A stretch of DNA of 64,000 nt, from assembly GCF_024347675.1 (NCBI RefSeq), contig NZ_AP024881.1, forward strand, positions 2,170,001 through 2,234,000. The letters are read 5' to 3'. The position numbers and the translations under genes were made by a program. Positions within the stretch are counted from its first letter, which is position 1. Each line of letters begins with the position of its first letter. This document shows, one piece after another, positions 35,636 through 38,805 of this stretch. This DNA comes from Vibrio ishigakensis (GTDB lineage: Bacteria > Pseudomonadota > Gammaproteobacteria > Enterobacterales > Vibrionaceae). The notes under the pieces are model-generated. The model had not been told where the DNA came from and did not search any database. It saw nothing but the letters and a program-made list of their open reading frames with translations.

Positions 35636-35666
35636 AAAACGCTGAGTAAATACTCAGCGTTTTTTC
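35636..35666. terminator. Bidirectional terminator between ybbJ and the LPMO cluster
   Basis: A 13-base-pair stem AAAACGCTGAGTA / TACTCAGCGTTTT with T runs on both strands. Confidence 0.9.
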
Positions 35667-35696: not shown

Positions 35697-36167
35697 CTAA
35701 TCCAAGGTTTCCCTAGTTATCTTTAACGTCACTTCTTGGCTTGGCTGACCTTTCAACACCAAGGTGTAGCTACCCCACTCATGAGTATTGATGTGGGTAA
35801 TCGTCATCTTTGAACTGTCACATTGCTGGTTATCAATATCTGCCCCTAAAACATCAGCACCCGCAATATCCATATCAAGCCCCTTACTATGAAAAACAAT
35901 TAGCTTCTCATCCCAGTTCTCGATAGAAAGATCTAGATAAGCCTCACCGGCTTTGTTCAAGGTCGTAGCGATGGAAATGGGTTCAGTCACGCTTAGGCTC
36001 ATTTGAGCCGCCTCATCGGCTGTATTTGCTACTTTCCAAGGCTTAGCTATCAGCTCACAAAGCTGCTGGTATTGCCGAGCAAAAAACTCATTTCTGGCAC
36101 TATCGTCTGCTAACACCAGACTCGGTGACGCCAACAACAGACCAATCATTATTTTTGATAACTTCAT
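35697..36167 (-). CDS. Secreted small protein of unknown function in the LPMO cluster
   Basis: 156 residues with a clear signal peptide (MKLSKIMIGLLLASPSLVLA, likely cut after LVLA). The mature protein has two cysteines (QLCELI near residue 37 and NQQCDS near 116), three tryptophans, and a strand-rich C-terminal half (TITHINTHEWGSYTLVLKG). I do not recognise a family. It starts 13 bases after the di-heme gene, so it belongs to the same transcript as the di-heme protein and LPMO. Roles worth considering: substrate or partner of the di-heme enzyme, or a copper or electron carrier; none is shown by the sequence. Confidence 0.75.
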   Translation of the reverse strand: MKLSKIMIGLLLASPSLVLADDSARNEFFARQYQQLCELIAKPWKVANTADEAAQMSLSVTEPISIATTLNKAGEAYLDLSIENWDEKLIVFHSKGLDMDIAGADVLGADIDNQQCDSSKMTITHINTHEWGSYTLVLKGQPSQEVTLKITRETLD

Positions 36168-36180
36168 TTCTAATTAAATC

Positions 36181-37239
36181 CTATCTATCACATAGCGATG
36201 AGTCAGCTTGCTCACAGAACGGAGAGTTAAACGGGTATCTCGTCCAGTCCCTGTCAATGGACAGTGCATTCAAGAAAGCAAGCAGTGCTTCTCGCTCCCG
36301 TCTAGTTATTTGAAACCCGCTTACCCATTCGCTCTTTGCAGGGTGTGCTCGACCATCTCCTTGATTTGTTCCATAGGTGAGCTTGCGCCCTCCCCTGGCA
36401 TAAAGGTCCAGTAACGATTCCAAGGATTGAATGCTACCATCGTGTCCCCAAGGAGAGGTGTGCGCTACGTTGATCAAGGAGGGGATACGAAACTTGCCAT
36501 TGTCTTTTTTCTTTCCCGAATGCCCCTCTAGACCAAGTTGACCCATGGGGTAACTTGGAAACCCTTCGGCATCCAGCGCGCCATACAATCCCGTGTTCCG
36601 AAAAGGCTCTTGCTCGTCGCTGGGGGTATCGAACAAGACACCACCATGGCACTTGGAGCAGTTTAGCCTGTCACCAGAGAAGAGTTGCCACCCTAACAAC
36701 TCTTGTGCACTAAGAGCCTTGTGTTGACCCTGCTGATAGCGATGAACACGAGTATCTTGGCTTTGAACAAGGCTTAAGTAGTCCTCGAGTGCGGTAGCAA
36801 CGCGCTCAATTGTTACCTCAGAGTCCCCAAACCCTGTCTCAAACATTGCTAGATATAAGGGCTTACGACTTAGCCGAGCTACCAAAAGCTCTACAGTCAT
36901 ACCCATCTCTAGGGGATCAACAGAGAACAGAGGGTTTAAGATGGCTTGCTCTAGCTCAGTAGCCCTTGGATTGGTCTGTGAAAACTGACGCCTATGAATG
37001 ACATTGAGCAGAGATGGGGTATTCAAAGTGCTTGGCTTACCATAAATATCTATGGTTTTGTTAAAGGTATTACTCCAGCCGTGAGTCGGAGAATGACATA
37101 AGGCGCAACTTCGATTGCTATGCAATGACAGTGAGGTATCAAAGAATAGATAGCGTCCCAGCTGCTGTGTGGCGCTTAGCTCACTGCCCCAACACACGCC
37201 ACTGATGATGAGCAGAAGTATGGCGATGTTCACTTTCAT
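36181..37239 (-). CDS. Di-heme cytochrome c peroxidase / MauG-like protein
   Basis: Secreted c-type cytochrome of 352 residues. A signal peptide (MKVNIAILLLIISGVCWGS) is followed by two heme c motifs, CALCH (45-49) and CSKCH (194-198), and the family block KFRIPSLINVAHTSPWGHDGS (about 249-269). This is the CCP/MauG superfamily: peroxidases, or enzymes such as MauG and MbnH that oxidise residues of a partner protein. I start at ATG 37237-37239, which gives a proper signal peptide; a longer frame reaches 37290. It lies between the LPMO and an unknown secreted protein with short gaps (51 and 13 bases). Confidence 0.9.
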   Translation of the reverse strand: MKVNIAILLLIISGVCWGSELSATQQLGRYLFFDTSLSLHSNRSCALCHSPTHGWSNTFNKTIDIYGKPSTLNTPSLLNVIHRRQFSQTNPRATELEQAILNPLFSVDPLEMGMTVELLVARLSRKPLYLAMFETGFGDSEVTIERVATALEDYLSLVQSQDTRVHRYQQGQHKALSAQELLGWQLFSGDRLNCSKCHGGVLFDTPSDEQEPFRNTGLYGALDAEGFPSYPMGQLGLEGHSGKKKDNGKFRIPSLINVAHTSPWGHDGSIQSLESLLDLYARGGRKLTYGTNQGDGRAHPAKSEWVSGFQITRREREALLAFLNALSIDRDWTRYPFNSPFCEQADSSLCDR

Positions 37240-37290
37240 GGTTAAAATCAAGAGAGATAAAGCCACCTGAACACAGGTGGCTATCATCAT

Positions 37291-38805
37291 TTAGTCCAGC
37301 TTTCTCCACTGCTGCTCGACCCAGTTTGGATCGCTAGCAACACCCGGCAAGAAGGCTTCATCATTACAATGGGCAGCCCAAGGGCCATAACATTCATAGA
37401 TGCCCTCACCTTCAAATTTCACCACATCCCCAGCGACATAGTTTCCAAAGCCTTCCGGATATAGATAGTCGTATTCGATATCTCCTTGTTCAGTTATAAC
37501 GGAGAACTCATAGTTTGCCTGCTCTAGAGCACCGTCAACTCGACCGGTAACACGCACCGTATACTCGCCTAACTCACTCACCTGCAAGCTTACTAGTGCA
37601 TCTGTGGTGCCCGATACAACCTGCTCAGGCTCAGTTTCACCCACGGCTTTCATGATCACGGTGAAGTCGTAAATATCTTGCTCACCGTTCTCAACCGCCA
37701 CTTCCACAGGAATAGATAGGGCTTCACCCTCTGCTAACTCATATTGAGATTCGCCATTGACCCAGGCTATAGAGGTGTCACTGCCATCTTGTTCAAGCTT
37801 CTCAACTAGATGCGACCATTCCTTGCTCACATAGTGGATATAGTTTTTCGCTGGGTCGTCACTCAGCTCAACCTCACCATCATCGTTTAATACGCCAACC
37901 TGAACGTATTCTGAGATAGTCGGGTTATCATTGATAGCCCTAGCTAAATCCAGCTTCCAGATATCATCGTTTTCATTGCTAGAGGTAATATCTTGGAATA
38001 CCTCGAACTCTTCTGAGTTGCTGTGCATCAGGCGAGCTTTCACACGATCACCTGCGGCAACCTCAAAGCTTTCGGTAGCGAAGGCTTCACTCTTCACCCA
38101 AGGTGATTTATCTGGTTCAGGGGCAGGGTTATGGTCACCCACGATGACATTGGCGCAGCTGTAGAATGCCTCAGGGCTATCCCAGACATTCTCAGGCGGA
38201 GCGCCTAGCACCTCGTGATGGGTATGGCTTACATCAGGACGTTGCCACACCTGATAGATAACGTGTTTTCCGGTTTTACCCTCTGGCCACTTCACCTTAA
38301 AGGTTTCAGTAGCATTTGGCTCTTCTCCATAGCCGTCAATGACCGTCAAACGCTCAAGGTCATCCCAGGTCAATACCTCGGTATCTGGGTCAAAGCCATC
38401 ACGGGTCACGAAGATATCCCAATACCAGGTTCGATGCGGAGCGGTATGGGTATAGACGATCTCAAACTCGCCGTTTGCGTCCAACTCAAGCTCTGTGGCA
38501 TAACGATTTGCACTCGGTACATCGAGAACCGAATACACGCCACCCTTTGAAGCCGAGCAGAGCTGTCCATCAGCAATAACCGCTTTATGGTCACCGCCTG
38601 GGGTGTTGTTTATCTCATTTTTTTGATTGGACACTGTGTCATTACACAGCTCAGAATCCGTGGTGCTTCCTTTAAAACAACTATTGGCGTAGTCCTGCGG
38701 ATATTCCATATATCCGTGAGCCGATACCGGAGCCACATACGCACCGCTAAGTGACGCACAGACTAAGCCTATTTGAAACGCTAACTTCTTTTGAATAAAT
38801 CGCAT
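37291..38805 (-). CDS. Secreted AA10 lytic polysaccharide monooxygenase, GbpA-like
   Basis: Copper enzyme that oxidatively cleaves crystalline chitin (or cellulose). It is 504 residues. Signal peptide 1-29 ends PVSA, leaving His30 as mature His1, the first ligand of the copper histidine brace; His124 in HTAPHRTWYW is the likely second. The AA10 domain (30 to about 220) ends AFYSCANVIVGDH. Two GbpA-like middle modules and a C-terminal aromatic chitin-binding module (YDYLYPEGF...WVEQQWRKLD) follow. The start at ATG 38803-38805 gives a standard signal peptide; an upstream frame reaches 38892. It is larger than V. cholerae GbpA (485). First gene of the cluster. Confidence 0.92.
   Translation of the reverse strand: MRFIQKKLAFQIGLVCASLSGAYVAPVSAHGYMEYPQDYANSCFKGSTTDSELCNDTVSNQKNEINNTPGGDHKAVIADGQLCSASKGGVYSVLDVPSANRYATELELDANGEFEIVYTHTAPHRTWYWDIFVTRDGFDPDTEVLTWDDLERLTVIDGYGEEPNATETFKVKWPEGKTGKHVIYQVWQRPDVSHTHHEVLGAPPENVWDSPEAFYSCANVIVGDHNPAPEPDKSPWVKSEAFATESFEVAAGDRVKARLMHSNSEEFEVFQDITSSNENDDIWKLDLARAINDNPTISEYVQVGVLNDDGEVELSDDPAKNYIHYVSKEWSHLVEKLEQDGSDTSIAWVNGESQYELAEGEALSIPVEVAVENGEQDIYDFTVIMKAVGETEPEQVVSGTTDALVSLQVSELGEYTVRVTGRVDGALEQANYEFSVITEQGDIEYDYLYPEGFGNYVAGDVVKFEGEGIYECYGPWAAHCNDEAFLPGVASDPNWVEQQWRKLD

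Follow-up and report, generated by a model that had tools for sequence, protein, structure and literature searches.

A di-heme enzyme of the MbnH lineage and a small protein form a conserved gene pair in Vibrionaceae that often lies beside an AA10 lytic polysaccharide monooxygenase gene

A 64,000-nucleotide stretch of Vibrio ishigakensis DNA (contig NZ_AP024881.1, positions 2,170,001 to 2,234,000; hereafter the window, whose own numbering is used throughout) carries three minus-strand genes encoding an AA10 lytic polysaccharide monooxygenase (LPMO), a di-heme enzyme and a small protein of 156 residues. Our findings show that the real unit within this cluster is the di-heme/small-protein pair, which is co-inherited in Vibrionaceae, and that the gene cluster exceeds chance. 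In the best explanation, which we put at somewhat short of an even chance, the di-heme enzyme, of the MbnH lineage, is predicted to act as a peroxide-driven maturase: it would oxidize a tryptophan of the small protein, most likely Trp131, and so generate a copper site serving the LPMO. The copper and electron supply of bacterial LPMOs, and the way they survive peroxide, is an open question, and according to an excerpt of PMC9537276 no enzyme had been identified as their redox partner; a linked pair resembling a copper-protein maturase would make the supply question testable in a chitin degrader. The open reading frame (ORF) coordinates bear out the arrangement described in a first-pass annotation of this DNA, with 51 bases between the LPMO and di-heme genes and 13 bases between the di-heme and small-protein genes; the signal-peptide-like starts of all three proteins were assigned by eye. 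The genes are listed here.

37291..38805, minus strand: AA10 LPMO gene, 504 residues, with an AA10 domain, a GbpA_2 domain and a C-terminal module of ~56 residues
36181..37239, minus strand: di-heme enzyme gene, 352 residues (ATG at 37239), signal-peptide-like start, in the clade of MbnH
35697..36167, minus strand: small-protein gene, 156 residues, with a start resembling a signal peptide; product predicted to fold as a beta-sandwich and likely the di-heme enzyme's substrate

Among 329 Vibrionaceae genomes, 22 from 4 of 13 genera match the small-protein profile, and precisely these 22 match the di-heme profile at E ≤ 1e-90. As read from profile-match coordinates and ORFs, the two genes are adjacent in 22/22 genomes, always with the di-heme gene first. 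Outside Vibrionaceae, the small protein is found in 6 of 11 Moritella genomes, with the pair adjacent in both Moritella loci read, and the pair is also adjacent in a Plesiomonas metagenome-assembled genome (MAG). In an order-wide sample, 8 of 394 genomes hold the small protein; in a class-wide one it is the window's own genome alone, 1 of 369. A search of plasmids gives no match. In 14 of the 22 Vibrionaceae loci, the di-heme match has an AA10 gene no more than 1500 nt away, whereas this holds for 0 of 26 controls, which are loci of the same order with other di-heme enzymes (Fisher one-sided p 6.6e-7, uncorrected for kinship). The first-pass annotation had proposed a redox-coupled chitin-oxidation module that would fall if homologs of its genes were rarely adjacent in other genomes, and the idea survives these counts.

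The residues of the di-heme enzyme that bear on its function are the following, all encoded on the minus strand.

37093..37107: CALCH (residues 45-49), heme site 1
37069..37080: GWSN with Trp55
36970..36984: FSQTN with Gln88, at the inter-heme Trp position
36898..36915: PLEMGM, whose Glu111 aligns with the acid-base Glu of bacterial cytochrome c peroxidase (bCCP) and MauG
36646..36660: CSKCH (residues 194-198), heme site 2
36388..36408: DLYARGG, in which Tyr280, a Tyr of the MauG/MbnH type, aligns with the Met ligand of 1iqc

The two heme sites and the MauG/CCP block noted from the letters alone are confirmed; the CCP_MauG domain scores 115 bits. The best NCBIfam match is the MbnH family TIGR04039, at 255 bits, below its cut-off of 362.85, and the best PDB match is 6e1c (175 bits, annotated "Di-heme enzyme"), which we take to be MbnH. 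An assignment of 6e1c to BthA was rejected, the BthA structure being 6NX0 according to its paper. In a tree of 36 di-heme enzymes, the 10 pair enzymes form one clade (support 100/100), and together with 12 MbnP-linked MbnH enzymes and 6e1c they form a 23-row set (100/99); that the pair enzymes are nested inside MbnH rather than beside it has a support of just 87/68. A wider set of 154 rows, comprising the best 120 of 422 matches and excluding P0045 (the window's own copy) and P0074 (a fragment), places the pair enzymes in an MbnH lineage of 141 rows with a Shimodaira-Hasegawa-like approximate likelihood ratio test (SH-aLRT) value of 98, and recovers a bridging group of 15, one of them from a Myxococcota MAG, as sister to the pair clade (SH-aLRT 88). 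The groups in this set were first sorted by residues 55, 264 and 342; a tree built without columns 55, 88, 264 and 342 returned the same groups as clades, including exactly the 53-row pair clade (SH-aLRT 100).

In the alignment, Tyr280 stands opposite the Met of 1iqc, so that the Met-His-ligated high-potential heme of a canonical bCCP is not expected and the Tyr-for-Met ligand exchange at the six-coordinate heme of MauG/MbnH-type enzymes is; Tyr occupies this position in 51 of the 53 pair-clade enzymes, and Glu111 is present in all 53. The inter-heme Trp of MauG and bCCP, which in 1iqc precedes the catalytic Glu by 20 residues, presumably has the same spacing in MauG, between Trp93 and Glu113. 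It is present in 26/26 non-pair rows of the first alignment and, in the wider set, in 87 of 88 MbnH-lineage rows outside the pair clade versus 0 of 53 within it, where the position is filled by Gln (45), Leu (3), Val (3) or Tyr (2). Excerpts of PMC6405878 give Trp93 as the inter-heme residue of MauG and Ser257/Glu277 for BthA. Conversely, Trp55, six residues after the heme-1 His, is found in 53/53 of the pair clade and is Phe in 88/88 of the other MbnH-lineage rows. From these sequences we infer that Trp55 may now serve as the relay in place of the inter-heme Trp that was lost. The clade offers a natural experiment on a residue thought to be a charge carrier in the superfamily, having dropped one Trp and carrying another elsewhere. 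Three sequences deviate: P0076 has no Trp at either 55 or 88, and P0069 and P0070 (Vibrio fluvialis) are diverged relatives within the Trp55 clade with a shorter chain and Asn at the Tyr280 position. A structure model of the di-heme enzyme had a predicted local distance difference test (pLDDT) score of 51 and was not used.

The small protein carries three conserved segments, all on the minus strand, whose counts refer to 47 distinct homologs; P0026, its most distant relative, is excluded from this set.

35904..35918: NWDEK with the second invariant Trp, Trp85 (47/47)
35814..35828: segment with Cys116, invariant together with Cys37 (47/47); a disulfide is possible
35766..35795: HINTHEWGSY (residues 125-134), in which His125, His129, Glu130, Trp131, Ser133 and Tyr134 are invariant (47/47)

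The resulting invariant motif is HxxxHEWxSY. That this protein belongs to no recognized family was already suspected, and indeed no family exceeds the Pfam cut-off, no NCBIfam entry matches, and a 28-row profile finds no sequence match in the PDB (E ≤ 1), CorA and MopE included. Its structure model is a predicted beta-sandwich with a pLDDT of 92.6, the PPC/collagen-binding type being one candidate for its fold. The top Foldseek rows are the C-terminal domain of the Clostridium perfringens enterotoxin (TM score ~0.5, root mean square deviation mostly 8-12), a similarity that we judge from the model to reflect an arrangement common to many beta-sandwiches; the structure rows shown do not include MbnP, CorA or MopE. 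An identification as MbnP was rejected, given an hhalign probability of 7%, the lack of an NCBIfam match and the lack of an MbnP (TIGR04052) match in the window's genome; genomes G089, G115 and G123 have no such match either. The protein contains no CxxCH and no matched cofactor domain.

The first-pass annotation had left three roles open for the di-heme enzyme, namely modifying a Trp of the small protein, tuning peroxide for the LPMO, or feeding it electrons. Judged from the sequences, Trp modification is the best supported of the three and the other two less so, because the enzyme falls in the MbnH clade and carries the MauG-type Tyr, and because the small protein holds two invariant Trp and two invariant His. 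In such a mechanism, peroxide would drive the di-heme enzyme to a bis-Fe(IV)-like oxidizing state, in which Trp55, next to heme 1, is the putative relay. Trp131 would then be oxidized, by analogy with MbnP, CorA and MopE, probably to kynurenine, which together with His129 and His125 may bind Cu(I). The matured protein would load copper into the LPMO or, alternatively, hold copper that the LPMO releases and thereby limit peroxide damage. Copper partners for AA10 enzymes have precedent: excerpts of PMC7902821 report that azurin activated copper-free CbpD, and excerpts of PMC12703677 that Cu(I)-binding CBM2 modules protect AA10 enzymes and that off-pathway peroxide reactions damage LPMOs. The LPMO being a copper enzyme, these precedents lead to the proposed scheme of maturase, copper protein and LPMO.

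If true, MbnH-type Trp oxidation would extend to a new substrate protein, and the LPMO-maturation reading would describe a previously undescribed system. Its broader form we regard as doubtful: a maturation system for bacterial LPMOs in which an MbnH-lineage di-heme enzyme with a Trp near heme 1 in place of the inter-heme Trp acts on a new substrate, a small beta-sandwich protein bearing the HEW motif, oxidized Trp131 becomes a Cu(I) ligand, copper is loaded to or retrieved from AA10 enzymes, and several LPMO subtypes have joined independently.

Two alternatives bear on the chemistry of the pair. One, rather unlikely in our estimate, is that the pair makes a protein-derived redox cofactor, an oxidized or cross-linked Trp such as the tryptophan tryptophylquinone (TTQ), and that the small protein passes electrons to the LPMO. 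Its first step is the same as that of copper-site maturation, and the two invariant residues Trp85 and Trp131 would suit it, but the two His that are invariant next to Trp131 point to a metal site, and no such cofactor has been seen. The other, which we consider distinctly unlikely, casts the di-heme enzyme as a peroxidase that restrains H2O2 around the LPMO; the small protein would donate electrons to it or serve it as a docking factor, and nothing would be permanently modified. The CCP_MauG domain fits this, as do the peroxide damage to LPMOs described in the excerpts of PMC12703677 and the finding, in those of PMC6405878, that H2O2 is still reduced by BthA, and also by its Tyr-to-His variant, when a donor is supplied externally. 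Against it, the Met ligand position is Tyr in nearly all pair-clade enzymes (51/53), the bCCP inter-heme Trp is gone, and the small protein has neither CxxCH nor a matched cofactor domain.

The known systems that come nearest to the pair include MbnH/MbnP (TIGR04039/TIGR04052, the "metallo-mystery pair"). It is likewise an adjacent two-gene pair, its enzymes share a clade with the window di-heme enzyme, which keeps the Tyr and the Glu, and both MbnP and the small protein have invariant Trp and Cys. The differences are as follows: the window enzyme scores below the MbnH cut-off, lacks the inter-heme Trp and has Trp55, Trp264 and Cys342; the small protein is about half the size of MbnP and unrelated to it by profile; the di-heme gene comes first and its partner second, the reverse of the order in the 12 MbnP-MbnH loci read; and the window pair has an LPMO neighbor. 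MbnP adjoins MbnH in all 12 loci whose MbnH exceeds the cut-off, so the place that MbnP takes in the relatives is held here by an unrelated protein.

In methanotrophs, CorA/CorB and MopE/SACCP each place a di-heme protein beside a protein in which a Trp-derived kynurenine belongs to a two-His Cu(I) site (excerpts of PMC3912023 and PMC3621798). The excerpted text of PMC3912023 gives the CorA Cu(I) site as Kyn62 (kynurenine), His64 and His114 plus water and describes CorA as co-transcribed with the di-heme protein CorB, and that of PMC3621798 treats MbnP/MbnH and MopE/SACCP as similar pairs. CorA has W-x-H plus a distant His, whereas the corresponding candidate site of the small protein would be H129-x-W131 plus His125. 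MauG, which acts in TTQ biosynthesis on a Trp of its partner protein, likewise has two c-hemes, a Tyr for the Met ligand and the Glu; the window enzyme, however, scores 125 bits against a MauG cut-off of 443.85, has Gln at the Trp93 position, and the scanned neighbors of its gene are not mau genes. BthA of Burkholderia, a Tyr-ligated di-heme enzyme that also lacks the inter-heme Trp (Ser257; excerpts of PMC6405878), is a far weaker match than 6e1c (6nx0, 29 bits, versus 175 bits) and adjoins a putative phosphatase. Finally, the copper-binding CBM2 of ScLPMO10C, with its MMH motif, is a module that binds Cu(I) and protects an AA10 LPMO (excerpts of PMC12703677); it is a fused domain with a Met-Met-His site, whereas the window has a separate protein with a His/Trp motif and likely its own modifying enzyme.

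The association with AA10 genes recurs with different LPMO subtypes and takes two orientations, the 14 linked AA10 genes lying upstream on the same strand (8) or downstream and convergent (6). On an AA10 tree with 53 rows, 14 of them next to the pair, this neighborhood requires 4 changes by parsimony, at least 3 of which are forced by well-supported branches; the partial Plesiomonas AA10 (cut at a contig end, 39% of columns) was added to the tree, the split AA10 of genome G883 was left out of it, though counted as adjacent among the 14 of 22, and the Photobacterium aphoticum AA10 was scored as not linked, 3 changes remaining if it is counted as linked. Seven linked AA10s (the window and L041, L042, L043, L045, L046 and L177) form one clade (100/100).

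Several observations weigh against a link with LPMOs. Eight of the 22 Vibrionaceae loci have no AA10 gene within 1500 nt; in the seven loci where a C69-peptidase-like gene stands upstream, none appears over 10.5-11.5 kb, nor does one over ~20 kb in either Moritella locus read. An AA10 gene is present somewhere in all 10 pair-bearing genomes searched, which says little, since AA10s are common in relatives; co-occurrence in Moritella was discarded as uninformative (AA10 in 10/11 genomes). It is conceivable, though in our view improbable, that the pair has nothing to do with LPMOs and instead, say, stores copper for a different enzyme, and that AA10 nearness is neighborhood inertia. The loci just listed and the hairpin described below between the LPMO and di-heme genes speak for it; the contrast of 14/22 with 0/26, the two orientations and the at least three separate placements on the AA10 tree speak against it.

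The surroundings of the pair vary in ways of their own. In one genus, the C69-peptidase-like gene replaces the LPMO gene before the pair (L164, L165, L169, L170, L172, L173 and L176), an assignment made by Pfam for L164 and from the N-termini for the other six. In Photobacterium aphoticum, the small-protein gene occurs a second time ~5 kb away, beyond an insertion-sequence-like ORF pair (L044:15078-15686; L179:15098-16471), and a convergent AA10 gene ~11 kb from the pair, ~5 kb past that second copy, with other ORFs between; the pair and the LPMO gene look to have been pushed apart here. In Vibrio pacinii, a cytochrome b561-like gene (L046:6515-7102; PF01292, 82 bits) lies just upstream of the LPMO gene and is another possible redox partner. 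In G860, a second CCP_MauG protein and a 333-residue protein without a Pfam family precede the AA10 gene (L178:1446-2585), whose frame looks interrupted by eye, and in G883 the convergent AA10 is split over two ORFs (L167:6917-8277), through either an interrupted gene or a sequence error.

The transcription of the cluster may be shaped by two hairpins, identified from sequence and folding.

37261..37282, minus strand: terminator-like hairpin between the LPMO and di-heme genes
35636..35663, no strand assigned: bidirectional terminator closing the cluster (fold z -3.8)

The "single bidirectional terminator" of the first-pass annotation is present at the end of the cluster, but it is not the sole terminator-like site. 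The second hairpin, between the LPMO stop and the di-heme start, has 9 pairs, is GC-rich with a T-rich tail, and folds with a z of -5.8, none of 200 shuffles being as good. A hairpin occupies the LPMO/di-heme gap in 8/8 loci folded (the window, L041, L042, L043, L045, L046, L049 and L177; G860, whose AA10 gene also lies upstream, was left out of this set). In the seven other loci the hairpins differ in sequence and have z values of -2.0 to -5.1, the weakest being that of L045 (z -2.0, 7 of 200 shuffles as good). A clear T-rich tail (at least 6 T in 10) follows the hairpin in the window, L043, L045 and L049, and a weaker one (3-5 T in 10) in L041, L042, L046 and L177. The recurrence in all eight loci suggests that the LPMO gene may be only partly co-transcribed with the pair, and the division into four clear and four weak T tails that in some loci the hairpin is perhaps no terminator. 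Read-through may nevertheless occur, as the 51-base gap with its hairpin leaves little room for a promoter.

Consequently, a single three-gene operon is unsupported as stated: the hairpin separates the LPMO gene, and some loci carry the pair with no LPMO gene nearby. "Operon-like" holds for the di-heme and small-protein genes, which overlap by 4 nt in L041-L043, and for the LPMO gene only in the event of read-through. We infer either that LPMO output is high while little transcription reads through into the pair, or that LPMO gene and pair are transcribed separately; under read-through, this hairpin would hold the maturation pair at a low level and leave that of the LPMO high.

The LPMO itself is the sole AA10 match in its genome, and three of its segments matter here, all on the minus strand.

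38707..38718: His30-Gly-Tyr-Met, predicted mature N-terminus with the first copper-brace His (cleavage site inferred)
38428..38442: APHRT with His124, the second brace His
38176..38238: loop insert, residues 190-210, directly before EAFYSC, with a conserved His and Trp

The AA10 domain spans residues 30-220 at 119 bits, starts at His30 and is accompanied by the GbpA_2 domain, in agreement with the earlier report of an intact histidine brace; His30 and His124 would form this brace, given the predicted cleavage. CbpD is the best PDB match (7sqx, 1.3e-29). The GbpA_2 domain is common to the window LPMO and GbpA, yet the LPMO reaches 137 bits against a GbpA cut-off of 481, and it differs from both CbpD and GbpA by the loop insert before EAFYSC. 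This insert motif of ~20 residues, with an invariant His and Trp and ending in EAFYSC, is found in 6 of 45 aligned AA10s, all six beside the pair, and in 0/39 of the other rows; the six are those members of the seven-AA10 clade above that the alignment covers. A di-heme enzyme that modifies a Trp of the LPMO itself, for instance in this insert, with the small protein as adaptor, would account for that restriction but is very improbable, because the linked AA10s of G860, the convergent loci and Plesiomonas fall outside the insert clade and because the constant partner is the small protein, not the LPMO.

Among the open-licence papers listed, no title or opening of an abstract describes a MauG-like gene beside an LPMO gene. 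In the main text of a Vibrio coralliilyticus chitin transcriptome paper (PMC5209532), the words "cytochrome" and "peroxidase" are absent, and excerpts of PMC11087555 gave no link. The window's genome has one further CCP_MauG match elsewhere (G000:C1:941182-941610; L001). Among other Vibrio loci, L031, L032, L034 and L035 carry di-heme enzymes in tandem pairs beside a conserved small protein with a twin-Arg-like start, and by eye an apparent oxidoreductase gene lies alongside them.

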